Shown: in pieces, positions 7,086 through 19,056 of the stretch
Position numbering within the stretch: the first letter of the stretch is position 1
How the letters are laid out: each line of letters begins with the position of its first letter
DNA from: Rubrobacter marinus
Lineage (GTDB): Bacteria > Actinomycetota > Rubrobacteria > Rubrobacterales > Rubrobacteraceae
Length of the DNA: 64,000 nucleotides
Direction of reading: 5' to 3'
NCBI RefSeq assembly: GCF_011492965.1
Contig: NZ_CP045121.1
Span: 310,001-374,000, forward strand
Position numbers and translations under genes: made by a program
The notes under the pieces: generated by a model
The model's input: the letters and a program-made list of their open reading frames with translations, nothing else
Told to the model about the DNA's origin: nothing
Databases searched by the model: none

Positions 7086-7818
7086 TTGGATAAGATCGAG
7101 AGAACCTCCCTGGCCGACGCCGTTACGGACAGGGTCATCTCCCAGATACGGGAAGGCCGGTACCGTGCCGGGATCGTCTCCCGACCGAGAGGGAGCTCGC
7201 GGAGCAATTGGGGTCGGCAGGACCTCGGTGCGCGAGGGACTACGGTTCCTGGAGAAGCTGGGCATACTGGAGATCCGCCAGGGGACGGGGACTGTGGTGC
7301 GCTCCCTCTCGCTGGGGGAGGTCTTCGAGCACCTGCTCCCCGTTCAGACGATCATCGAGCTCCCCGACAGAGACGTCCGCAACATCATGCACGTGAGGCG
7401 TGTCCTGGAATCCGAGTCGGCCCACCTGGCGGCGCAGCATGCGACCGAGGAGCAACTCGAGCGTCTGGGGGAGCTTCTCGATGGCATGGCCGCTTCTCTG
7501 GAGAGGCCCAGAAACTACCTGGAATTGGACCTCGAGTTCCACGTGCTGGTCGCCGAAGCCGCGGCCAACCCCGTGCTGGCTCAATTGATCAACCTGATCC
7601 GCGACATCTACACCAGGTACTTCGAGATCGTGCTCGAGGACCCCGACATGAACACCACCTCGCTGGAGTTTCACCGCCAACTGTACGCGGCCCTTCGCGA
7701 ACGCAACGCCGACGCCGCCCGCCGACACATGCTCGCCCACCTGCGCCAGGCCGAGAGGGACGTGCTGAAGCTGCTCGACCCCACGGGCGAGAACGGCAAC
7801 GGCTCCCCGCCGCCGTAG
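7086..7818 (+). pseudogene. GntR-family regulator, FadR/FCD subgroup, two frameshifts
   Basis: TTG 7086 lies 9 bases after GAGGAG (ATG 7053 is an in-frame alternative). The N-terminal winged HTH reads LADAVTDRVISQIREGRY, then after one missing G near 7172 DRLPTERELAEQLG, and after another near 7214 VGRTSVREGLRFLEKLGI. This is the standard GntR sequence once two bases are restored. The C-terminal FCD domain is intact, with the metal-ligand pattern LDLEFHVLVAEAAANP, TTSLEFHRQLY and RRHMLAHL. FCD regulators sense sugar acids or organic acids. It sits just upstream of the sugar catabolic operon starting at 8490, so it is the best candidate regulator of that operon (inference). Confidence 0.8.
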
Positions 7819-8299: not shown

Positions 8300-8489
8300 G
8301 CCGCCGGCTGAGACGTTGCCTTCGTTGTACGGCCGGGGTAGTGCTCCGGAGTGAGGGGGAGGGAGCCTTCTTCCGGGCACGCGTGGAGGGTTCTGTCGCT
8401 GAGTACCTTTGCCGGCCAATGCAATCAAGGTAACATTACGAGGGGTTGAAGCATTCGCGTCGGTCGAGACGCGAGGGGAAGGAGGAAAG

Positions 8490-9896
8490 GTGGCTGCGGG
8501 AAGTACCAGTTCTGGGAGCGCCGAGAGGCGCAGGTTCGTCAACGTCGCGGCGGCGATTACGGCGACGGGCGGGTTGCTGTTCGGCTACGACACGGGCGTG
8601 ATATCGGGCGCCTTGCCGTTCATCAGGGACGACTTCGGTATCTCCGCCTTCACGCAGGGCGTCGTCGTTAGCTTCCTGCTCGTAGGCGCGATGGTCGGCG
8701 CGCTCTCGGGGGGGCCGCTCTCCGACAGGATCGGGCGCAGGTCGACCGCGCTCATCGCCGCCGTCATCTTCGGGGTGGGGGCGTTGGTCGTTGCTCTTGC
8801 GCCGAGCGTCGCCGTCATTATCTTGGGCCGCTTCGTGCTCGGTTTAGGGGTCGGTCTCGCGTCGATGATCGTGCCGCTCTACATAGCGGAGATAGCTCCG
8901 GCCGACAGGCGGGGCGGGCTCGTCTCGCTCAACCAGCTTCTGATCACCGTCGGCATCCTCGTCTCCTACATCGTCGGCGTGATCTTCGCTCCGGTCGAGG
9001 GCTGGCGCTGGATGTTCGGCGTCGCCCTGATCCCGGCTCTCGTCCTGTTCTTCGGCATGCTCAGGTTGCCCGAGAGCCCGCGCTGGCTCTTCGAGCAGGG
9101 GCGGACGGATCAGGCCCGCTCCGTGCTCAGCCGCTCCCGTAGCGAAGCGGAGATAGAGCGGGAGATCCAGGACATGCAGCAGATAAAGGAGCAGGAGCTC
9201 CAGCAGTCGCAGGCGGGGTACGGGGAGCTCCTGGCCCCCTACGTGCGGCCCGCGCTCGTCATAGGCATCGGGCTCGCGATCTTCCAGCAGGTCACCGGCA
9301 TCAACACCGTCATCTACTACGCCCCCACGATCCTGGAGAGCGTGGGCTTCTCCGTGCAGGGCGCGCTCGTCGCGAACGCTCTGGGCGTGGGGCTGGTCAA
9401 CGTCGGGTTCACCATCCTCGCCGTCCGCATCATTGACCGCGTCGGACGCAGGCCGCTGCTCCTCATCGGCCTCGTCGGCATGACCATCAGCCTCGCCCTG
9501 CTCGCCATAGTCTTCACCGTGGGCGGCGAGTCGGTGAGCACCGGCCTGGGCATCCTGGCGACGGTCTGCCTGGCGCTCTACATCGCGTCGTTCGCGATCA
9601 GCCTCGGGCCGGTTTTCTGGCTGATGATCTCCGAGATCTACCCCTTGAGGATCCGGGGCACCGCCATGAGCGCGGCCTCCATCGCCAACTGGGGCTCGAA
9701 CTTTATCGTCGCCCTGTCGTTCCCGGTCTTGCTGGCGGCTCTGGGCGGCGCGACCTTGTTCTGGGTGTTCGCCGTGCTCGGCATCGTGGCGTGGGTCTTT
9801 ATCTACTTCCGCGTGCCCGAGACGAAGAACCGCACCCTCGAGGAGATAGAGGCGAGCTTCCGCGGTACGCAGGTGGCCTCGAGCCGCGTGCGCTAG
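8490..9896 (+). CDS. MFS sugar:H+ symporter (SP family)
   Basis: GTG 8490 directly follows GGAGGAAAG, giving 468 residues with twelve hydrophobic segments. Sugar-porter signatures are all present: GYDTGVISGALPFI in TM1, SDRIGRRS in loop 2-3, PESPRWLFEQGR after TM6, QQVTGINTVIYYAPTI in TM7, RVGRRPLLL in loop 8-9, and PETKNRTLEEIE at the C-terminus. The family imports hexoses, pentoses or inositol with protons. As the first gene of an operon with beta-phosphoglucomutase, glucokinase and a GH65 enzyme, it probably imports glucose or a glucosyl disaccharide (inference). Confidence 0.9.
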   Translation: MAAGSTSSGSAERRRFVNVAAAITATGGLLFGYDTGVISGALPFIRDDFGISAFTQGVVVSFLLVGAMVGALSGGPLSDRIGRRSTALIAAVIFGVGALVVALAPSVAVIILGRFVLGLGVGLASMIVPLYIAEIAPADRRGGLVSLNQLLITVGILVSYIVGVIFAPVEGWRWMFGVALIPALVLFFGMLRLPESPRWLFEQGRTDQARSVLSRSRSEAEIEREIQDMQQIKEQELQQSQAGYGELLAPYVRPALVIGIGLAIFQQVTGINTVIYYAPTILESVGFSVQGALVANALGVGLVNVGFTILAVRIIDRVGRRPLLLIGLVGMTISLALLAIVFTVGGESVSTGLGILATVCLALYIASFAISLGPVFWLMISEIYPLRIRGTAMSAASIANWGSNFIVALSFPVLLAALGGATLFWVFAVLGIVAWVFIYFRVPETKNRTLEEIEASFRGTQVASSRVR

Positions 9897-9911: not shown

Positions 9912-10697
9912 GTGGCATTTACCGGAGCTATCTTCGACGTCGACGGGGTGTTGGTCGACTCGCCGCACGAGAAGGCGTGGCGCGAGGGCCTGAGGCAGCT
10001 CATGGAGGGCGACTGGAGCGACATAAGGGAGCAGACCTCCTGGTCGCCGGAGGCGTTCACCCCGCAGGTCTACCAGAGGGAGATGAGCGGCAAGCCGCGC
10101 TTCAAGGGGGCGCAGGCGGCGCTGGAGTACTTCGGCGTCCCCGACGCCGAGCGGCGGGCCCTGGAGTACGGCAACCGCAAGCAGGAGATGATTGTCGAGC
10201 TTATCGAGGCCGCCGACTTCGAGGAGTATCCCGACGCCCTGCGCTTCGTGCTCGAGGTCAAGGCGGCGGGCATCCTGATCGCCGCCGCCTCCTCGTCCAA
10301 GAACGCCGGCGCCTTCCTCAGGCTCGTCCGCCTGGATGCTTTCGCCGAGAAGGAGGGCCTCGGCTACGATTTTCTGCGCCCCGGTTACACGCTGCTCGAC
10401 ATCCTCGACGGCGACGTGAGCGGGCGCGACTTCGCTCAAGGCAAGCCGCACCCGGAGATCTTTCTGACCGCCGCCGGGGAGCTGAGCCTCGCGCCCGGGG
10501 AGTGCTTCGTGGTCGAGGACGCCGTCAACGGGGTGCAGGCGGCGAAGGCCGGCGAGATGACCGCCCTCGGCGTCGCGCGCGCCGACGACGAGGAGGCGCT
10601 GGCCGAGGCGGGCGCGGACCTGGTGGTGACGAGCCTCGACGACGTCTCCGTCGGCGCGCTCGCCGAGGGGCGCCTGGAGCGGGCGAGCGTGCGGTGA
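9912..10697 (+). CDS. pgmB: HAD-superfamily hydrolase, beta-phosphoglucomutase-like
   Basis: GTG 9912 follows GGGGGGATC. The 261-residue protein has HAD motif I FDVDGVLVDS (nucleophile Asp9 and acid/base Asp11), motif II in AAASSS, motif III Lys in GKPHPEIF, and motif IV VVEDAVNGVQAA. The cap insertion after motif I is of the beta-PGM type, though longer than in Lactococcus PgmB. The enzyme would convert beta-glucose 1-phosphate, the product of inverting GH65 phosphorylases, to glucose 6-phosphate. Genes for both partner steps follow. It also matches the N-terminal domain of mycobacterial OtsB1 (Rv2006) in position. Confidence 0.82.
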   Translation: MAFTGAIFDVDGVLVDSPHEKAWREGLRQLMEGDWSDIREQTSWSPEAFTPQVYQREMSGKPRFKGAQAALEYFGVPDAERRALEYGNRKQEMIVELIEAADFEEYPDALRFVLEVKAAGILIAAASSSKNAGAFLRLVRLDAFAEKEGLGYDFLRPGYTLLDILDGDVSGRDFAQGKPHPEIFLTAAGELSLAPGECFVVEDAVNGVQAAKAGEMTALGVARADDEEALAEAGADLVVTSLDDVSVGALAEGRLERASVR

Positions 10698-10745: not shown

Positions 10746-11714
10746 ATGAACGCCATTGGGGTGGACGTCGGCGGGACCAAGATAGCCGCCGCGGTGGTTT
10801 CCTCGGAGGGCGAGATCCTGAACGAGGTCAGGTATCCGACGCAGGCGGTCCCGCCGAACCGGTTGGTGGAGACGATAGCCAGGGCGGTCACGGAGGTCAA
10901 GGACGGCTACGCGGTGGGCGGGGTGTGCCTGGCCGTTCCGGGTCTTATCCTGGCCGCAGAGAACAAGGTCGTCTTCTCGCCCAACCTCCACGAGATAGAA
11001 GACATCCGTCTCGACGAGGAGATGGGGCGGAGAACGGGCCTGTCGGTGACCGTGGAGAACGACGCGAACGCGGCCGCCTGGGGGGAGTTCCGGTTCGGCG
11101 CCGGCAAGGACGTCGATCATCTCGTCTTTATCACCCTCGGCACCGGGGTCGGCGGCGGGGTCATCACCCACGGGGTCCTGCTGAGGGGCTCCCAGGGGTC
11201 CGGCGGGGAGTTGGGGCACGTGACCATAGACCCCGCGGGGCCGCGTTGCGGCTGCGGCAACCACGGCTGTCTCGAGGCCCTCGCCTCGGGCACGGCCATC
11301 GAGCGCCGCGCCCGCGAGGTCGCCAGCGAGCTGCCGAACTCCGCGCTGGGGCGGCTCGCCATCCAGAGGCGCGTGCTCGGGGAGGACGTGACGAGGCTCG
11401 CCCAGGAGGGCGACGAGGCCGCCTTGCAAGTGCTGCAGGAGACCGGCATGTGGCTGGGGATCGGCCTGGCGGGGTTCGTGAACGTCTTCAACCCGGAGGT
11501 GATCGCCGTCGGCGGCGGCGCCTCCCGGGCGGGGGAGTTCGTTCTTGGTCCCGCGCGCAAGGAGGTGCAACTCAGGGCCCGCTCCCCGTCGCGGGATCTG
11601 GTCCAGATACAGGAGGCGAGCCTCGGCCCGGAATCCGGCGTGCTCGGCGCCGCCGCGCTCGCCCGGGGCGAGGACGGGGAGTACGTGCTCGGTCCCTCCA
11701 AGCGCGTGACATGA
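10746..11714 (+). CDS. glk: ROK-family glucokinase
   Basis: The 322-residue protein starts at ATG 10746 after AGGAGGTAGAGG. It has the ATP-binding GVDVGGTKIAAAVV at the N-terminus, the catalytic ENDANAAAWGE, and the ROK zinc signature GELGHVTIDP with CGCGNHGCLEA near residues 157-178. It phosphorylates glucose released by the GH65 phosphorylase or imported by the symporter. Its stop overlaps the possible ATG 11711 of the OtsB gene. It interrupts what in mycobacteria is one fused HAD-OtsB-GH65 protein. Confidence 0.9.
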   Translation: MNAIGVDVGGTKIAAAVVSSEGEILNEVRYPTQAVPPNRLVETIARAVTEVKDGYAVGGVCLAVPGLILAAENKVVFSPNLHEIEDIRLDEEMGRRTGLSVTVENDANAAAWGEFRFGAGKDVDHLVFITLGTGVGGGVITHGVLLRGSQGSGGELGHVTIDPAGPRCGCGNHGCLEALASGTAIERRAREVASELPNSALGRLAIQRRVLGEDVTRLAQEGDEAALQVLQETGMWLGIGLAGFVNVFNPEVIAVGGGASRAGEFVLGPARKEVQLRARSPSRDLVQIQEASLGPESGVLGAAALARGEDGEYVLGPSKRVT

Positions 11715-11728
11715 GAGAGGGGGAGTTC

Positions 11729-12550
11729 GTGGCCAGAAACATCGGCGACCTGCCGCACGCGCTCCACGACGGCGAGGAGTTGGCCCGGCGCCTCGCGGGG
11801 AAGCGGCCGGCCGTGTTCCTCGACTACGACGGGACGCTGACCCCGATCGTGGACAGGCCGGAGGACGCGATCATCTCGGAGAGCATGCGAGACGCCGTGC
11901 GTGGTCTGGCCGGCCGGTGCCCGGTGTGCGTGGTGAGCGGGCGAGACAGGCAGGTCGTGCAGGAGCTTATGGGCGTGGACGACCTCATCGTCGCGGGCAG
12001 CCACGGCTTCGACATCTGGAGCCCCTCGGGCGGCGAGATCCAGCGCGAGGAGGGCGCGGGGTCCAGAGACCTGCTCGACGGGGTGAAGGAGAGGCTGCGC
12101 CGGGAGATCGGGTCGATCGAAGGCGCGCTCATCGAGCCGAAACAGACCTCGGTCGCCGCCCACTACCGGCTCGTCTCCGAGGAGGAGAGGCCGAAGGTCG
12201 CGGCGGTCGTCGAGGCGGTCCTCTCCGAGCACCCGGACGAGTTGAAGGTGACGCCCGGCAAGATGGTCTACGAGATCCAGCCGAAGATAGATTGGGACAA
12301 GGGGAAGGCCGTCCTCTACCTGCTGCACGCTTTGGAGCTCGACAGCGATGACGTCGTGCCGATCTACCTCGGCGACGACATCACCGACGAGCACGCCTTC
12401 GAGGCGCTCGCGGGGGCGTCGCCGAAGGGCATCGGCGTATTCGTCGGCCGCGCCGACGACCCGGAGGTGGCCGGGAGGACCACCTCCGCCGACTACGTCC
12501 TCAACACGATGGGGGAAGTGGAGCGGTTCCTGGACACGCTCGCGCGCTGA
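11729..12550 (+). CDS. otsB: Trehalose-6-phosphate phosphatase
   Basis: The product has 273 residues from GTG 11729 (AGAGAGGGGGAG just upstream); the ATG at 11711 overlapping the glk stop is an alternative. HAD motifs are complete: VFLDYDGTLTPIVDRP with the Asp nucleophile, VVSGRDRQVVQEL, GSHGFDIW, and IYLGDDITDEHAF near the C-terminus. KMVYEIQPKIDWDKGKA is the OtsB substrate-cap lysine region. The enzyme releases trehalose from trehalose 6-phosphate. No otsA is seen in the window, and the next gene is a GH65 enzyme, so the product could be degraded on the spot or the pair may scavenge trehalose 6-phosphate. Confidence 0.92.
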   Translation: MARNIGDLPHALHDGEELARRLAGKRPAVFLDYDGTLTPIVDRPEDAIISESMRDAVRGLAGRCPVCVVSGRDRQVVQELMGVDDLIVAGSHGFDIWSPSGGEIQREEGAGSRDLLDGVKERLRREIGSIEGALIEPKQTSVAAHYRLVSEEERPKVAAVVEAVLSEHPDELKVTPGKMVYEIQPKIDWDKGKAVLYLLHALELDSDDVVPIYLGDDITDEHAFEALAGASPKGIGVFVGRADDPEVAGRTTSADYVLNTMGEVERFLDTLAR

Positions 12551-12588: not shown

Positions 12589-15012
12589 ATGCTGGAAGAG
12601 AGAGCAGGAACCACGGGGCCGAACTGGACCCTCGCCTACGACTCCTTCGAGCCCGAGCAGGAGGGGCTGCGCGAGGCCCTGACCTCCACCGGCAACGGCT
12701 ACTTCTGCACGCGGGGTACCCTGGCGTGGGCCGAGGCCGACGGGGTGAGCTACCCGGGCACCTACACCCACGGCGGGTTCAACCGGGAGACCACCATCAT
12801 GAACGGGGTGCCGGTCCTCAACGAGGACCTGGTAAACCTCCCGAACTGGCTCTTGCTCGAGCTCAGAATAGAGGGGGAGGAGGCCGTCGACATGAGCAAC
12901 GTCGAGCTCCTCTCCTACCGCCACGAGTACGACGTCCGAAACGCGGCGCTCCGGCGCGTCTCGAGGTTCCGCGACCGGGCGGGCCGCGAGACGACGCTGG
13001 AGACGCGCCGCTTCGTCAGCATGGCCGACATGCACCAGGCGGCGATGCAGTGGACCGTCACGCCGGAGAACTGGTCGGGCAGGGTCGAGGTGATCTCCTC
13101 GCTGGACGGGCGGGTCACGAACGGGGGCGTCGCCCGCTACAGCAGGCTCGAGGGTCGCCACCTCGACCCCGTCTCCCCCAGGACGTTCGGTCCCGAGATC
13201 ATCGCCCTCGAGGCACGGACCCGCCAGTCGCGGATCTACGTCGCCGAGGCGGCCCGCACCCGCGTCTACGGCGAGGACGGCGGGGTGCTCGACGTACGCC
13301 GCGGCCTCTACCAGATGCAGGACTACATCCACCAGGTGCTCTCCTTCGAGGTCGAGGAGGGGAGGCCCGCGCGGATCGAGAAGATGGTCTCTTTCTACAC
13401 GTCGCGAGACAGCGCCATAAACGAGCCGCTGACCAACGCCGGCAAGGCCGTCGGCCGCTACGGGACGTACGAGGAGGCCTTCGAGCGCCACGCCCGGGCG
13501 TGGGACGAGTTGTGGGACGTGTGCGACGTGCTCGTCCCCCGGGACGACCGGGTGCAGCTCCTGCTGCGCCTGCACATCTCCCACGTCCTCCAGGTCTGCT
13601 CGCCCCACACGGCCGACCTCGACGCCGGCGTCCCGGCCCGGGGGCTCAACGGCGAGGCCTACCGCGGCCACATCTTCTGGGACGAGCTCTTCATCTACCC
13701 GTTCCTGAACTTCCGGCTGCCCGAGATCACGCGCGGCCTCCTGATGTACCGCTACCGCAGGCTAAACGAGGCCCGGGCGGCGGCGAAGGAGGCCGGTTAC
13801 GAGGGGGCGATGTACCCCTGGCAGAGCGGCTCCGACGGGCAGGAGGAGACCCAGACCGTACACCTGAACCCCAAGTCGGGGAGGTGGGAGCCGGACCTCT
13901 CCCACAACCAGCGCCACGTCAGCGCGGACATCTTCTACAACATCTGGCGCTACTACGAGGCGACGGGCGATTTCGAGTTCCTGCTCGACTACGGCGCCGA
14001 GATGATGCTCGACATCGCCCGCTTCTGGGCGAGCATCGCCCACTACAACCCCGAGCGAGACCGCTACGAGATCCACGGCGTCATGGGCCCGGACGAGTTC
14101 CACGAGAAGTACCCGGGCTCGGACGAGGAGGGGCTCAGGAACAACGCCTACACCAACGTGATGGTCGCTTGGCTCTCCGAGATCTCCCTGGAGGTGCTGG
14201 ATCTCCTCACCGAGCGCCACCGGAAGGCGCTGAGCGCCAGGATCGGCCTGACCGACGACGAGGTGGGAACCCTGGAGGAGATGAGCCGCAAGATGTTCGT
14301 CCCGTTCCACGGCGACGGGATCGTCAGCCAGTTCGAGGGCTACGAGGACCTCGAAGAACTGGACTGGGAATCCTATCGGGAGAAGTACGGCAACATCCAG
14401 CGGCTCGACCGCATCCTGAAGGCCGAGGGGGACGACCCGGACAAGTACAAGCTGACCAAGCAGGCCGACGCCGTGCTGCTCTTCTTCCTGTTCCCGTCCG
14501 ACGTCCTGCGGCGGCTCTTCGAACGGCTCGGCTACGACTACGAGCCCGAGATGGTGCGCAAGAACGTCGACTACTACGACGGCCGGACCTCCCACGGCTC
14601 CACCCTGAGCTTTATCGCCCACGCCGGCATCCTCGCCGGCATCCACCCCGAGAGCTCGTGGACCCGGTACATGGTGGCTTTGGAGAGCGACGTCGGCGAC
14701 GTGCAGGGCGGCACCACCCAGGAGGGCATCCACATGGGGGTGATGGCGGGGACGCTGGACCTCATCCAGCGCGGCTACCTGGGCACCGAGATCCGCGACG
14801 GGACGCTCTACTTCGACCCGAAGCCCGTGGGGAACCTGGACGGGCTGTCGTTCCCCATGCGCTTCCGCGGGACGCCGCTGGAGGTGACGCTCGAAGGGGG
14901 CGAGCTGAGGGTCGCCGCGCAGGCCGACGGCCTCAACCAACCCGTCAAGGTCGGCGTCAACGGGACCGTCGAGGAGATAGAGGCCGGCGAGAGCCACACC
15001 TTCGTCCTCTGA
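12589..15012 (+). CDS. Glycoside hydrolase family 65 protein (trehalose/maltose/kojibiose phosphorylase type)
   Basis: The 807-residue protein starts at ATG 12589 after TAAGGAGC. GH65 landmarks are in order: FWDELFIYPF near 366, YPWQSGSDGQEET near 408, the catalytic acid Glu in VMGPDEFHEKYPG near 502, NNAYTN, KQADAVLL near 624, and the phosphate-binding SHGSTLS near 669. The C-terminal jelly-roll ends at 807. Together these indicate an inverting phosphorylase giving beta-glucose 1-phosphate plus glucose. The disaccharide (trehalose, maltose, nigerose or kojibiose) cannot be read safely. The otsB neighbour favours trehalose; upstream PgmB and glucokinase handle both products. Confidence 0.9.
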   Translation: MLEERAGTTGPNWTLAYDSFEPEQEGLREALTSTGNGYFCTRGTLAWAEADGVSYPGTYTHGGFNRETTIMNGVPVLNEDLVNLPNWLLLELRIEGEEAVDMSNVELLSYRHEYDVRNAALRRVSRFRDRAGRETTLETRRFVSMADMHQAAMQWTVTPENWSGRVEVISSLDGRVTNGGVARYSRLEGRHLDPVSPRTFGPEIIALEARTRQSRIYVAEAARTRVYGEDGGVLDVRRGLYQMQDYIHQVLSFEVEEGRPARIEKMVSFYTSRDSAINEPLTNAGKAVGRYGTYEEAFERHARAWDELWDVCDVLVPRDDRVQLLLRLHISHVLQVCSPHTADLDAGVPARGLNGEAYRGHIFWDELFIYPFLNFRLPEITRGLLMYRYRRLNEARAAAKEAGYEGAMYPWQSGSDGQEETQTVHLNPKSGRWEPDLSHNQRHVSADIFYNIWRYYEATGDFEFLLDYGAEMMLDIARFWASIAHYNPERDRYEIHGVMGPDEFHEKYPGSDEEGLRNNAYTNVMVAWLSEISLEVLDLLTERHRKALSARIGLTDDEVGTLEEMSRKMFVPFHGDGIVSQFEGYEDLEELDWESYREKYGNIQRLDRILKAEGDDPDKYKLTKQADAVLLFFLFPSDVLRRLFERLGYDYEPEMVRKNVDYYDGRTSHGSTLSFIAHAGILAGIHPESSWTRYMVALESDVGDVQGGTTQEGIHMGVMAGTLDLIQRGYLGTEIRDGTLYFDPKPVGNLDGLSFPMRFRGTPLEVTLEGGELRVAAQADGLNQPVKVGVNGTVEEIEAGESHTFVL

Positions 15013-15066: not shown

Positions 15067-16509
15067 GTGGTAGAGCGCATAGTGATCTTCGGGGCCACCG
15101 GGGACCTGACGGGGCGGTACCTGATGCCCGCCCTGGCCAAACTCTACGAGGCCGGCAAGCTGCCGGGCGGGATCAGGATCACCGGGGTGGACCGCAGGGG
15201 GTGGGAGGACGACGAGGCGGGCTTCCGCCGCCTGGTGCTGGACAACCTGGAGCGCCACGCGGGCGGCGTGTCGGCGAGCGTCCGCGAGAAGATGGCCCTT
15301 GAGGTCGTGGAGTACCGCCGGGCCGACGTGACCGACGCCGAGAGCGTCATCTCCGCCCTCGGGCCGCTGACGGGGCCGATCCTGGCCTACCTGGCCCTGC
15401 CGCCGGCGGTCTTCGCCCCGACGATCGAGGCGTTGAAGGCGGCCGACCTTCCGGAGGGGAGCCGCGTCGCCGTCGAGAAGCCCTTCGGGGTGGACCTGGA
15501 GTCGGCCCAGAATCTCAACCGGCTGCTGCACGAGTTTCTCCCCGAGTCGGCCATTTTCCGCGTGGACCACTTCCTCGCCTGGCAGCCGTTCCCCACGATC
15601 ATGGGGCTGCGCTTCGCGAACGGGATCTTCGAGCCGCTCTGGGACCGCAACTTTATAGATCGCGTCGAGATCGTCTGGGAGGAGACCCTGGCGCTGGAGG
15701 GGAGGGCCGGCTACTTCGACCACGCCGGGGCGTTCAAGGACCTGATCCAGAACCACCTCCTCCAGCTTCTGTGCCTGACCGCTATGGAGGCCCCGACCGC
15801 CCTCCACCGGCGCAACCTGCGCGACCGCAAGGTGGACCTCCTGCGGGCCATCCGGCGCCTCTCCCCCGAGGAGGCGCGCCTTCAAACCGTGCGCGCCCGC
15901 TATTCCGCCGGCAAGATCGGGGAGAGGAGCATCCCGGCGTACGCCGACGAGGAGGGGGTGGACCCGGACCGCGGGACCGAGACCTTCGCCGAGGTCACGC
16001 TCTCCATAGAGAACCTGCGCTGGGCGGGGGTGCCGTTCGTGCTGCGCGCGGGCAAGGCCCTGAGCGGTTTTCGCGGCGAGATCGCCGTCCACTTCAAGCC
16101 GGTGCCCCACCTTGCGTTCCAGCGCGCCGACGACCCCCGGCCCAACGTGCTCCGCGTCGGGCTGGAGCCGAACAGGGTGACTTTGAACCTGAACGTCAAC
16201 GGACCCTACGACCCCTTCGACCTGGAACAGATAGAGCTCGGCGCCGCCCTCGACCCTCAGGAGTTTTTCGCCGCCTACGAGGCCCTCTTCCTCGACCTGC
16301 TCGAAGGCAACACCACCCTCTTCGTGCGGGCCGACGAGGCGGAAGAGGCGTGGCGCGTGAGCGAGCCGATCCTGGACGCGTGGGAGAAGGGGCTGGTGCC
16401 GCTCCTCGAATACCCCGCCGGCTCGAACGGCCCCGCCGAGGCGCCGGCCGAGCCGGAGCCGTCCAGGAGCGGCGCGGGCCGCGAGGAGCCGACCCCGTGG
16501 GCCCGCTGA
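15067..16509 (+). CDS. Divergent glucose-6-phosphate dehydrogenase (Zwf) homologue lacking phosphate-binding residues
   Basis: GTG 15067 follows GAAGGAGGA; 480 residues, normal Zwf length. Dinucleotide motif FGATGDL, EKPFGVDLESAQNLN, FRVDHFLAWQ (catalytic Asp near 166), FANGIFEPLWD, GRAGYFDHAGAFKDLIQNH (catalytic His) and TTLFVRADEAEEAW are present. Aligned by eye with Leuconostoc G6PDH, the residues that hold the 6-phosphate are changed: Tyr179 to Phe, Lys182 to Trp (RIDHYLGKE against RVDHFLAWQ), Lys343 to Phe (GKRLAAK against GKALSGF), and Lys21 to Tyr. The catalytic pair is kept. It may therefore oxidise an unphosphorylated sugar (inference). Neighbours encode KDG kinase and KDPG aldolase. 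Confidence 0.85.
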   Translation: MVERIVIFGATGDLTGRYLMPALAKLYEAGKLPGGIRITGVDRRGWEDDEAGFRRLVLDNLERHAGGVSASVREKMALEVVEYRRADVTDAESVISALGPLTGPILAYLALPPAVFAPTIEALKAADLPEGSRVAVEKPFGVDLESAQNLNRLLHEFLPESAIFRVDHFLAWQPFPTIMGLRFANGIFEPLWDRNFIDRVEIVWEETLALEGRAGYFDHAGAFKDLIQNHLLQLLCLTAMEAPTALHRRNLRDRKVDLLRAIRRLSPEEARLQTVRARYSAGKIGERSIPAYADEEGVDPDRGTETFAEVTLSIENLRWAGVPFVLRAGKALSGFRGEIAVHFKPVPHLAFQRADDPRPNVLRVGLEPNRVTLNLNVNGPYDPFDLEQIELGAALDPQEFFAAYEALFLDLLEGNTTLFVRADEAEEAWRVSEPILDAWEKGLVPLLEYPAGSNGPAEAPAEPEPSRSGAGREEPTPWAR

Positions 16510-16681: not shown

Positions 16682-17353
16682 GTGGACGATAGCGGCTCCC
16701 GAAAGCCGGTTGGAGAAGGCTGGATCGACGTCTCCGTCCCGCTGCGCAGCGGGATGGTCCGCTGGCCGGATAACCCGCCGGTCGAGATCGAACGGACGCT
16801 CGACATGGAACGCGGGGACGTCGCCAACGTCTCCCGGCTCTCGTTCGGGTCGCACACGGGCACGCACATGGACGCGCCGCTCCACTTCGTGCGCGGCGGC
16901 GATGGGCTGGACCTGATGCCCCTCGACGCCACGGTTGGGACGGCGCGGGTGATCGGTATCGAGGACCCCGTCTCCGTCAAGCGCGAGGAGATCGAACCGC
17001 ACGGTATCGGCCGCGGCGAGCGCGTCCTGTTCAGGACGCGAAACTCGGCCCGGCGCTGGTGGACCGAGGACTTCATGGAGGACTTCGTGTACGTCTCGGA
17101 AGGGGCGGCCCTGTACCTCGCGGAGCGCGAGGTCAGGACCGTCGGCGTAGACTACCTCTCGGTCGGGGGGTTCCACGAAGACGGCGTAGAGACGCACGAA
17201 GCGCTCCTCGGCGCCGGGATCTGGGTCATCGAGGGCCTCGAACTCTCCGGGGTAGAGCCGGGCGGGTACGAGCTGGTCTGCCTGCCGCTCAAGGTCGCAA
17301 ACGGCGACGGCGCCCCCGCCCGGGCGATCCTGCGCAAGCTCGAGGAGACGTAA
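16682..17353 (+). CDS. Cyclase-family metal-dependent hydrolase (kynurenine formamidase-like)
   Basis: GTG 16682 follows AGGAGGTCCCTC; 223 residues. The family signature HTGTHMDAPLHF (HxGTHxDxPxH metal site) lies near residue 58, with WIDVSVPLRSGMVRWP at the N-terminus and VGVDYLSVGG near 157. Members hydrolyse cyclic amides or formamides such as N-formylkynurenine; several are uncharacterised lactone or amide hydrolases. There is no tryptophan-pathway gene nearby. Its place between a sugar dehydrogenase and KDG kinase makes a lactonase role plausible, but that is inference. Confidence 0.85.
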   Translation: MDDSGSRKPVGEGWIDVSVPLRSGMVRWPDNPPVEIERTLDMERGDVANVSRLSFGSHTGTHMDAPLHFVRGGDGLDLMPLDATVGTARVIGIEDPVSVKREEIEPHGIGRGERVLFRTRNSARRWWTEDFMEDFVYVSEGAALYLAEREVRTVGVDYLSVGGFHEDGVETHEALLGAGIWVIEGLELSGVEPGGYELVCLPLKVANGDGAPARAILRKLEET

Positions 17354-17444
17354 TACGAGGGATGCCGACGGATGGCCGCAACCCGCGCGGCGGGTCGATG
17401 GCCACCGGAGCAGCGACGCTCCCGTCGCGGGGAGGTTGGGGAAG

Positions 17445-18395
17445 ATGAGCACTTTGCAACTGACGACCCTGGGCGAGGCTCTGGTGGTGATGGACCCCGT
17501 CTCCAGGGGGCACCTCAGGCACGTCGGCGGGTTCGAGAAGAACCTGGGCGGGGCCGAGCTCAACGTGGCGGTGGGCCTCTCGAGGCTCGGGCACCGGGTC
17601 GGGTGGGCGGGGCGGCTCGGCGACGACGAGTTCGGGAAGGAGATCCTGACCTTCGCGCGGGGAGAAGGGGTGGACGTCTCCGGGGCGGCCATGGACACCG
17701 AGGCCCCGACCGGCCTCTACTTCAAGGAGTGGAGGGCCCTCGGCCAGCTGCGCGTCTATTACTACCGGGCGGGCTCGGCGGCGAGCCGGATGCGTTTCGA
17801 GGACCTGGACCTGGAGCACCTGCTCTCCGGCGAGATCCTGCACCTCACCGGCATCACGCCCGCCCTCTCGGAGGGCTGCCACGACCTGGTCGAGCGCCTC
17901 CTCTCCGCGGCCAACGAGCGGGGCGTCGCCGTCTCCTTCGACGTCAACGTGCGGTGGAAGCTGTTCGAGGGGCGCGACCCGCGCATGGTCCTGGGTCCCC
18001 TCGCCGCCCGCGCCGACCTCGTCTTCCTCTCGGACGAAGAGGCCGAGCTCCTGTTCGGGGGGAGCGATCCGGCCTCCATCCAGGAGGCCATGCCGGGCAC
18101 AAGGGCCGGGACCGTGGTCGTCCACGGGGCGGCGGGCGCCTTCGCCGTGGAGGAGGGAGGCGTCTTCGAGAAGGCGTCCTACCCGGTGGAGGTGGTGGAT
18201 ACCGTGGGGGCGGGCGACGCGTTCGTCGCGGGGTTTCTCTCCGGGCGGCTGAGGGGTTGGAACGCGGAGGAGTGCCTGGACATGGCCAACGCCTGCGGCG
18301 CGTGCGCGGTCACCGTGCCGGGGGACCTCAAGGGGCTCCCCACGACCGAAGAAGCCCTGGCGCTCATGCGCGGTCGTCCGGGCGTCGAGCGCTAG
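17445..18395 (+). CDS. kdgK: PfkB-family sugar kinase, 2-keto-3-deoxygluconate kinase-like
   Basis: ATG 17445 follows GGGGAGG; 316 residues. PfkB features: GGAELNVAVGLSRLG near residue 32 (first signature), the substrate-lid region, DVNVRWKLF near 165, and the anion-hole/catalytic motif DTVGAGDAFVAGF near 250 with the catalytic Asp. The YYYRAGSAASRM segment is characteristic of KDG kinases. It would phosphorylate 2-keto-3-deoxygluconate to KDPG. The next gene, 17 bases downstream, is the KDPG aldolase, which supports the assignment. Fructokinase or ribokinase are less likely. Confidence 0.86.
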   Translation: MSTLQLTTLGEALVVMDPVSRGHLRHVGGFEKNLGGAELNVAVGLSRLGHRVGWAGRLGDDEFGKEILTFARGEGVDVSGAAMDTEAPTGLYFKEWRALGQLRVYYYRAGSAASRMRFEDLDLEHLLSGEILHLTGITPALSEGCHDLVERLLSAANERGVAVSFDVNVRWKLFEGRDPRMVLGPLAARADLVFLSDEEAELLFGGSDPASIQEAMPGTRAGTVVVHGAAGAFAVEEGGVFEKASYPVEVVDTVGAGDAFVAGFLSGRLRGWNAEECLDMANACGACAVTVPGDLKGLPTTEEALALMRGRPGVER

Positions 18396-18411: not shown

Positions 18412-19056
18412 ATGGAGCGAGATTCGATCCTGAAGAGGACCGGGGACCTGGGGCTCGTGGCCGTGGTTCGGGGGGAGTCGCGGGAGGCCGCGCTGGAGGT
18501 GGTCGACGCCCTCGTCGAGGGCGGCGTCCTGGGCATCGAGATCACCTTCACCACCCCCGATGCCCCGCTGGTCATACGGGACCTGAACGAGAAGTACGGA
18601 GACGACATCCTCCTCGGCGCCGGGACCGTGATCACCCGCGGACAGGCGGAGGAGTCGGCGAGGGCCGGGGCGACCTTCCTCGTCAGCCCGGGCTCGGACC
18701 CGGAGCTTCTGCCCGCCATGCTGGACACCGGTCTCCTGGTGCTGCCGGGCGCCCTCACACCCTCTGAGGTAATGATCGCCCGCAGGCTGGGCGCGCAGGC
18801 GTTGAAGCTCTTCCCGGGCTCCCTGGGCGGTCCGTCCCACCTCAAGGCCCTGCGCGGCCCCTTCCCCGACGTGCCCTTCATACCCACGGGCGGCGTCTCC
18901 TTGGACAACATCGCCGACTGGTTCGCGGCCGGTGCCCTCGCGGTCGGCGCCGGAGGAGCCCTGGTCCCGTCGTCGCTGGGGGGGCGAGACCGCGGCGAGG
19001 TAGTCGAGACGGCGCGGCGGTTCGCCGAGGCCGTGCGTGCGGCCAGGGAGCGCTGA
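18412..19056 (+). CDS. eda: 2-dehydro-3-deoxyphosphogluconate (KDPG) aldolase
   Basis: ATG 18412 follows GGGAGGGAGACGGGAGC; 214 residues, the usual class I KDPG aldolase size. VVRGES at the N-terminus, the catalytic Glu in GIEITFTTPDA near 43, GAGTVI, and the Schiff-base Lys in AQALKLFPGSLGG near 126 are all present, with PTGGVSLDN near 157 as the phosphate site. It cleaves KDPG to pyruvate and glyceraldehyde 3-phosphate. It is the last gene of the operon beginning at 8490. No 6-phosphogluconate or gluconate dehydratase is seen in the window. Confidence 0.93.
   Translation: MERDSILKRTGDLGLVAVVRGESREAALEVVDALVEGGVLGIEITFTTPDAPLVIRDLNEKYGDDILLGAGTVITRGQAEESARAGATFLVSPGSDPELLPAMLDTGLLVLPGALTPSEVMIARRLGAQALKLFPGSLGGPSHLKALRGPFPDVPFIPTGGVSLDNIADWFAAGALAVGAGGALVPSSLGGRDRGEVVETARRFAEAVRAARER

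Follow-up and report, generated by a model that had tools for sequence, protein, structure and literature searches.

A Zwf-fold protein that has lost its sugar-phosphate pocket represents a bacterial branch annotated as glucose-6-phosphate dehydrogenase and probably active on glucose

Glucose-6-phosphate dehydrogenase (G6PDH), the product of zwf, is a textbook enzyme, and zwf copy counts serve to infer pentose-phosphate and Entner-Doudoroff flux as well as NADPH supply. The same fold occurs in H6PD, an enzyme with broad sugar use that extends to free glucose at high concentration. In the G6PDH of Leishmania donovani, the phosphate of glucose 6-phosphate (G6P) is contacted by H250, Y251, K254, K411 and Q440, and the sugar ring by K220, E288, I304, D307, H312 and K406 (PMC9734377). 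The arginine at the R43 position is the NADP-phosphate arginine (PMC8546961, PMC4807051), and an excess of zwf isozymes and multiple zwf genes have been reported for Actinobacteria (PMC8546961).

A Zwf-like protein of 480 amino acids is encoded in Rubrobacter marinus, in a stretch of 64,000 nucleotides that was analysed whole and is called the window here, by a reading frame with a GTG start and a GAAGGAGG-type ribosome site immediately 5' (Table 1). The protein matches both Pfam domains of G6PDH (PF00479 and PF02781) and aligns with 42 distinct solved G6PDH-type sequences; it is about 39% identical to the canonical Zwf of its own genome and shorter than the OpcA-linked Zwf. Structure prediction returns the Zwf fold: an AF2 model built on a 50-row alignment has a pLDDT of 89 (44 for single-sequence AF2), and by Foldseek its TM-score is 0.85 to 1DPG and 0.89 to 7XHL, with a range of 0.85-0.89 over solved G6PDHs.

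Table 1. Features of the cluster in gene order, with positions in the window
Feature	Position	Strand	Basis
GntR/FadR-type regulator, possible operon regulator	7165..7818	+	Sequence read; upstream of transporter; same order in related locus L142
MFS sugar-porter-like transporter, cluster head	8409..9896	+	Sequence read; homologue directly before Zwf-like gene in related loci L034, L144
HAD protein, beta-phosphoglucomutase (beta-PGM)-like	9912..10697	+	TIGR02009 110 bits, cut-off 153
ROK family kinase, glucokinase-like	10746..11714	+	PF00480; TIGR00744 239 bits, cut-off 260
Trehalose-6-phosphate-phosphatase-like HAD protein, approximate start	11708..12550	+	Identified by reading; conserved in L033, L034
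GH65 family enzyme	12589..15012	+	PF03632/PF03636
Zwf-fold dehydrogenase with lost 6-phosphate pocket; proposed NADP-type glucose 1-dehydrogenase	15067..16509	+	Residues, tree, model
PF04199 metal-dependent hydrolase ('cyclase'), between Zwf-like and KDG kinase genes; proposed gluconolactonase	16682..17353	+	Pfam; lactonase role inferred
PfkB-family 2-keto-3-deoxygluconate (KDG/KDGal) kinase	17436..18395	+	Best NCBIfam model NF040938, 219.6 bits, below 400-bit cut-off
KDPG/KHG aldolase (Eda family)	18412..19056	+	TIGR01182 194.7 bits, cut-off 156

The original prediction held that this protein keeps the dinucleotide motif and the catalytic Asp/His pair but has Phe, Trp, Phe and Tyr in place of Tyr179, Lys182, Lys343 and Lys21, and alignment to solved G6PDHs bears out both points. 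The motifs GATGDLTGRYL, RVDHFLAWQ and RAGKALSGFRGE stand where canonical enzymes have ...RK., RIDHYLGKE and RTGKRLPKK. The catalytic D167 and H230 (D177 and H240 in canonical numbering) are intact, together with K138 of the EKPFG motif (K148), D225 (D235), K330 (K338) and the ring residue E206 (E216 position); the replacements are K21 to Y18, Y179 to F169, K182 to W172 and K343 to F335. The Leishmania ligands were placed on the window protein through its alignment with 8FUY, the solved enzyme of Crithidia, whose numbering is one below that of Leishmania by count. The five phosphate-ligand positions are thereby assigned to H168, F169, W172, F335 and E367, such that one of the five is kept, the His (H178 position), and four are replaced; the glutamate found for the phosphate Gln is a further loss, absent from the original prediction. 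Every ring side chain checked (K138, E206, D225, H230 and K330) is retained.

Genome contigs of 84,980 species were scanned and combined with searches within the same family to give 103 usable sequences. In their tree, 38 sequences make up a canonical part and 65 form a single branch (SH-aLRT 100, internal length 1.1) sampled from Actinomycetota, Myxococcota and Deltaproteobacteria; the window gene falls inside the branch. The Tyr179 column is invariant in 38/38 canonical sequences and retained in 0/65 of the branch (F in 63, V in 2); Lys182 is invariant in 38/38 and is K in 6/65; the phosphate Gln, E367 in the window protein, is invariant in 38/38 and found in 0/65. Because the Y, K and Q columns do not vary among the canonical sequences yet are lost across a branch of 65 members, loss of the phosphate residues is not a matter of chance. 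The Lys21 column is K in 37/38 canonical sequences and in 0/65 of the branch. K or R fills the K343 column in just 25/38 canonical sequences, and F335 taken by itself therefore carries little weight. The catalytic and ring residues tested are conserved in all 65 branch members.

If either K or R counts as retained at the two lysine positions, four or five of the five phosphate ligands are present in canonical sequences, and branch members keep one (43 members), two (9) or three (13). The K182 and K343 positions are both occupied by basic residues in 13 branch members, which come mainly from Microbacterium and its fellow Microbacteriaceae and mostly lie near a GH15 gene; the branch is therefore perhaps not uniform, and this subclade, with R182/K343, is possibly active on G6P. 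The Microbacterium loci L082, L089 and L091 are among these members. The right unit is a subfamily and not one gene, with one subclade, mostly Microbacteriaceae, that keeps two basic residues.

The branch has also gained basic residues. Residue 278 of the window protein (15898-15900) is Gln in 38/38 canonical sequences and Arg in 65/65 of the branch (RGQY to RARY), and R336, beside the K343 position, occurs in 50/65 and lies outside the common residues of canonical sequences; R278 and R336 may restore a phosphate site. In the human enzyme the residue equivalent to R336 is K366, which points to the structural NADP site; this speaks against R336 in that role, though it is no test. The window protein falls in the branch marked by F/V169, R278 and A331, of which A331 (A339 position) was dropped as a marker of branch function, given that human G6PD has Ala there too. 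R43, the cofactor-phosphate arginine, is present in the window protein, which is therefore expected to use NADP+ or both cofactors; it is absent from 27/65 branch members, which may prefer NAD+. When 150 Actinomycetota genomes were drawn evenly and searched at a threshold chosen to leave out canonical Zwf, 13 of them gave a match.

Annotation follows the profile models. NCBIfam PRK12853.1-3 (NF009492), named as a G6PDH equivalog, is the best model for the window protein (510.8 bits, cut-off 428) and also the best fit for the five other branch members tested; TIGR00871 gives the window protein 409.2 bits (cut-off 400.6). For the canonical Zwf of the same genome the order is reversed, with 444 bits for NF009492 and 665 bits for TIGR00871. 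Since the NF009492 cut-off is passed on both branches, by the window gene (15067-16509) and by the canonical one (L118:9151-10683, 444 against 428), this model is unable to tell them apart. A search of the open-access literature found no published test of any branch member.

The search for a second, canonical zwf that accompanied the original prediction was answered in the same genome, where a copy with HYLGKE and GKRMPKK intact lies beside opcA and pgl. All 37 genomes with a branch member that were tested carry a canonical Zwf, so the branch is unnecessary for oxidation of G6P. Gene neighbourhoods separate the two groups as well. OpcA and/or PGL genes lie within about 8 kb at 21/21 canonical loci, namely the own-genome copy and 20 from genomes in which a branch member occurs as well, and at 0/60 branch loci. 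A GH15 gene of the glucosidase/trehalase type is found no more than 3 kb away at 36/60 branch loci, compared with 0/41 canonical loci (Fisher p 1.4e-11, kinship ignored), and a GntK-type gluconokinase (TIGR01313, 148-172 bits, cut-off 113.75) adjoins the gene at 10/60 and 0/41 (Fisher p 0.005, kinship ignored). A general linkage of GH15 to zwf was dropped, as 20 of the 41 canonical loci come from genomes with a branch member and none of the 41 has it. Nine further genomes were taken unselected, of which eight were informative; GH15 was seen in 2, gluconokinase in 1 and OpcA/PGL in 0. Given that 3/8 of these loci had either partner, the link to GH15 or gluconokinase is real, though not universal. 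The gene order in an Archangium MAG (L040) is PF04199, GH15, Zwf-like gene and gluconokinase, and at L051-L053 the Zwf-like gene has genes for an IlvD-family dehydratase and for a 2-hydroxyacid dehydrogenase in its vicinity. Gluconokinase is a sensible partner only if the product of the dehydrogenase is still unphosphorylated.

KDG kinase and KDPG aldolase had been named as the next catabolic genes after the Zwf-like gene, and the two are present together in the cluster, the kinase below its equivalog cut-off, with the PF04199 gene lying in between. A PF04199 gene stands beside the Zwf-like gene also in Archangium (L040, 60% identical) and in the Rubrobacteraceae locus L034, and on these two separate linkages we would guess that its product is a lactonase. 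A scan of the window operon for promoters and terminators gave results at chance level. Among 40 family genomes, orthologs of the KDG kinase (75-82%) occur only alongside a Zwf-like gene of the W172 type (G000, G037, G026, G009 and G023), and in G035 the contig breaks off within the Zwf-like gene; W172 is itself confined to the clade with the kinase. A KDG kinase homologue (66-68%) without any Zwf-like gene is found in three genomes from a different genus. In the one of three that is readable, G015 (Rubrobacteraceae), the kinase homologue follows an SDR dehydrogenase (L151:8176-8919) for which PRK07231 glucose 1-dehydrogenase is the second-best model (213.6 bits, cut-off 215). Lying at the place that the Zwf-like gene takes in relatives, this SDR is a possible non-orthologous replacement.

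In L034 (genome G037) the order is transporter, Zwf-like gene, PF04199 gene on the opposite strand, KDG kinase, KDPG aldolase and an enolase-superfamily sugar-acid dehydratase. The pathway set is thus complete in one place there, since the dehydratase follows the aldolase; its best model is galactonate dehydratase (266 bits, below the cut-off of 311). A dehydratase of this type was not found in the R. marinus genome, which has an unlinked PRK13017-type sugar-acid dehydratase of the IlvD/Edd family that also occurs in genomes lacking the Zwf-like gene. Edd was not found among the two full PF00920 genes of this 94%-complete genome: the PRK13017-type gene scores 1003 bits and reaches 183 bits with the edd model (cut-off 708), and the second was judged IlvD-like from alignment alone. 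Because no Edd was found, the KDPG aldolase of the cluster is most simply fed by the KDG kinase and not from 6-phosphogluconate. Two further genes were seen in related operons. A fragment of a polyphosphate-glucose phosphotransferase of about half length, probably a broken gene, lies between the Zwf-like gene and the KDG kinase gene at L142:10944-11333 (G026), and a PPK2-like polyphosphate kinase lies between the GH65 and sugar transporter genes at L034:7317-8216.

From residues, tree and gene linkage, the window protein is quite probably an NADP-type, Zwf-fold dehydrogenase of free glucose that feeds a semi-phosphorylative Entner-Doudoroff route. In short, the subfamily would oxidize unphosphorylated beta-D-glucopyranose to glucono-1,5-lactone with NADP+, by ordinary G6PDH chemistry on C1 in which the D167/H230 dyad would abstract the proton of the C1 hydroxyl. 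The ring would be held as in G6PDH by K138, E206, D225 and K330. Hydrophobic residues (F169, W172, F335) and an acidic one (E367) are predicted to line the phosphate end of the pocket, which should disfavour a dianionic phosphate. Glucose would come from import or from the GH65 enzyme, which is probably an alpha-glucosyl disaccharide phosphorylase, its substrate being predicted, releasing beta-glucose 1-phosphate and free glucose. The PF04199 protein may open the lactone, the unlinked IlvD/Edd-family dehydratase may make KDG, and KDG kinase followed by KDPG aldolase would complete the route. For other members of the subfamily, GH15 glucosidases/trehalases would supply the substrate and gluconokinase would draw off the product. 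The window cluster would yield G6P as well as free glucose, by way of the GH65 enzyme, the beta-PGM-like HAD protein and the glucokinase-like ROK kinase.

The earlier expectation that an unphosphorylated sugar is preferred has to be weighed against a protein that is still a G6PDH, a second isozyme without an OpcA link that has either low affinity or a phosphate site rebuilt from H168 with R336 or R278. The expectation is favoured by the ring residues kept while phosphate residues are lost, by linkage across phyla to genes for GH15 enzymes, which release free glucose, and for gluconokinase and sugar-acid dehydratases, by the canonical zwf and by the lack of any Edd found; a rebuilt site and the G6P that the cluster also gives leave it qualified. 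A persisting G6PDH would agree with the names of both models, the retained H168, the newly fixed R278 and R336, the G6P-yielding glucokinase-like and beta-PGM-like genes and the two basic residues of some Microbacteriaceae members. It seems unlikely, however, given the loss of three columns invariant in 38 canonical sequences and the lack of PGL or OpcA at all 60 branch loci; in addition, 6-phosphogluconate would have no path to the cluster's KDPG aldolase in a genome where no Edd was found, and a gluconokinase partner would serve no purpose if the dehydrogenase product carried a phosphate from the start.

A different free aldose or a glucose modified at C6 (galactose, xylose, a 6-deoxy or other derivative), for which the KDG/KDGal kinase and a dehydratase of the galactonate type would serve as partners, is more doubtful still. 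Galactose is possible because the best model of the kinase is a bifunctional KDG/KDGal kinase and the linked L034 dehydratase scores best, at 266 bits (cut-off 311), with a galactonate dehydratase model, and the limitation of W172 to the KDG-kinase clade means that substrates may differ among subclades; the GH15, GH65 and GntK partners, however, all indicate glucose and gluconate. The long branch between the subfamily and canonical Zwf would suit a catalytically weak or regulatory relic, but with catalytic and ring residues conserved in 65/65 members and operon linkage maintained, this is very improbable.

The claim of a new type of sugar dehydrogenase needs adjustment. The gene is not singular, since the branch to which it belongs is widespread and already has a model, PRK12853, under the name G6PDH, although the reading is likely right in substance. 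The window protein would stand for a mislabelled bacterial enzyme branch, probably of glucose dehydrogenases. For the large 'G6PDH'-annotated branch as a whole, free-glucose dehydrogenase activity is the reading we lean towards, which would mean that NAD(P)-dependent glucose 1-dehydrogenase evolved once more, by way of a dismantled Zwf phosphate pocket. If the branch uses free glucose, the excess of 'zwf' in Actinobacteria is partly explained, and if all of it does so, flux models based on zwf counts are wrong for many actinomycetes. It would be a natural case of an enzyme that sheds the phosphate handle of its substrate and keeps its catalytic site, and the product would be a useful redox enzyme.

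In comparison with described systems, canonical Zwf (TIGR00871; 1DPG, 7XHL, 9EMM) has in common with the window protein the fold, dinucleotide site, catalytic Asp/His, EKP lysine and ring residues, but keeps the phosphate Y, K, (K) and Q and the link to OpcA/PGL that the window protein lacks. The PRK12853.1-3 family is the one that the window protein fits best, under a model named G6PDH. Mammalian H6PD (8EM2) is a weak match (124.6 bits) and is a bifunctional ER protein with a PGL domain. The classical glucose 1-dehydrogenases (SDR, MDR and PQQ) have an unrelated fold, yet their reaction and pathway position are those proposed for the window protein. The semi-phosphorylative Entner-Doudoroff pathway is matched by the KDG kinase and KDPG aldolase in a genome with no Edd found; this pathway normally begins with an MDR or SDR glucose dehydrogenase, whereas here a Zwf-fold enzyme is proposed to take that first step.
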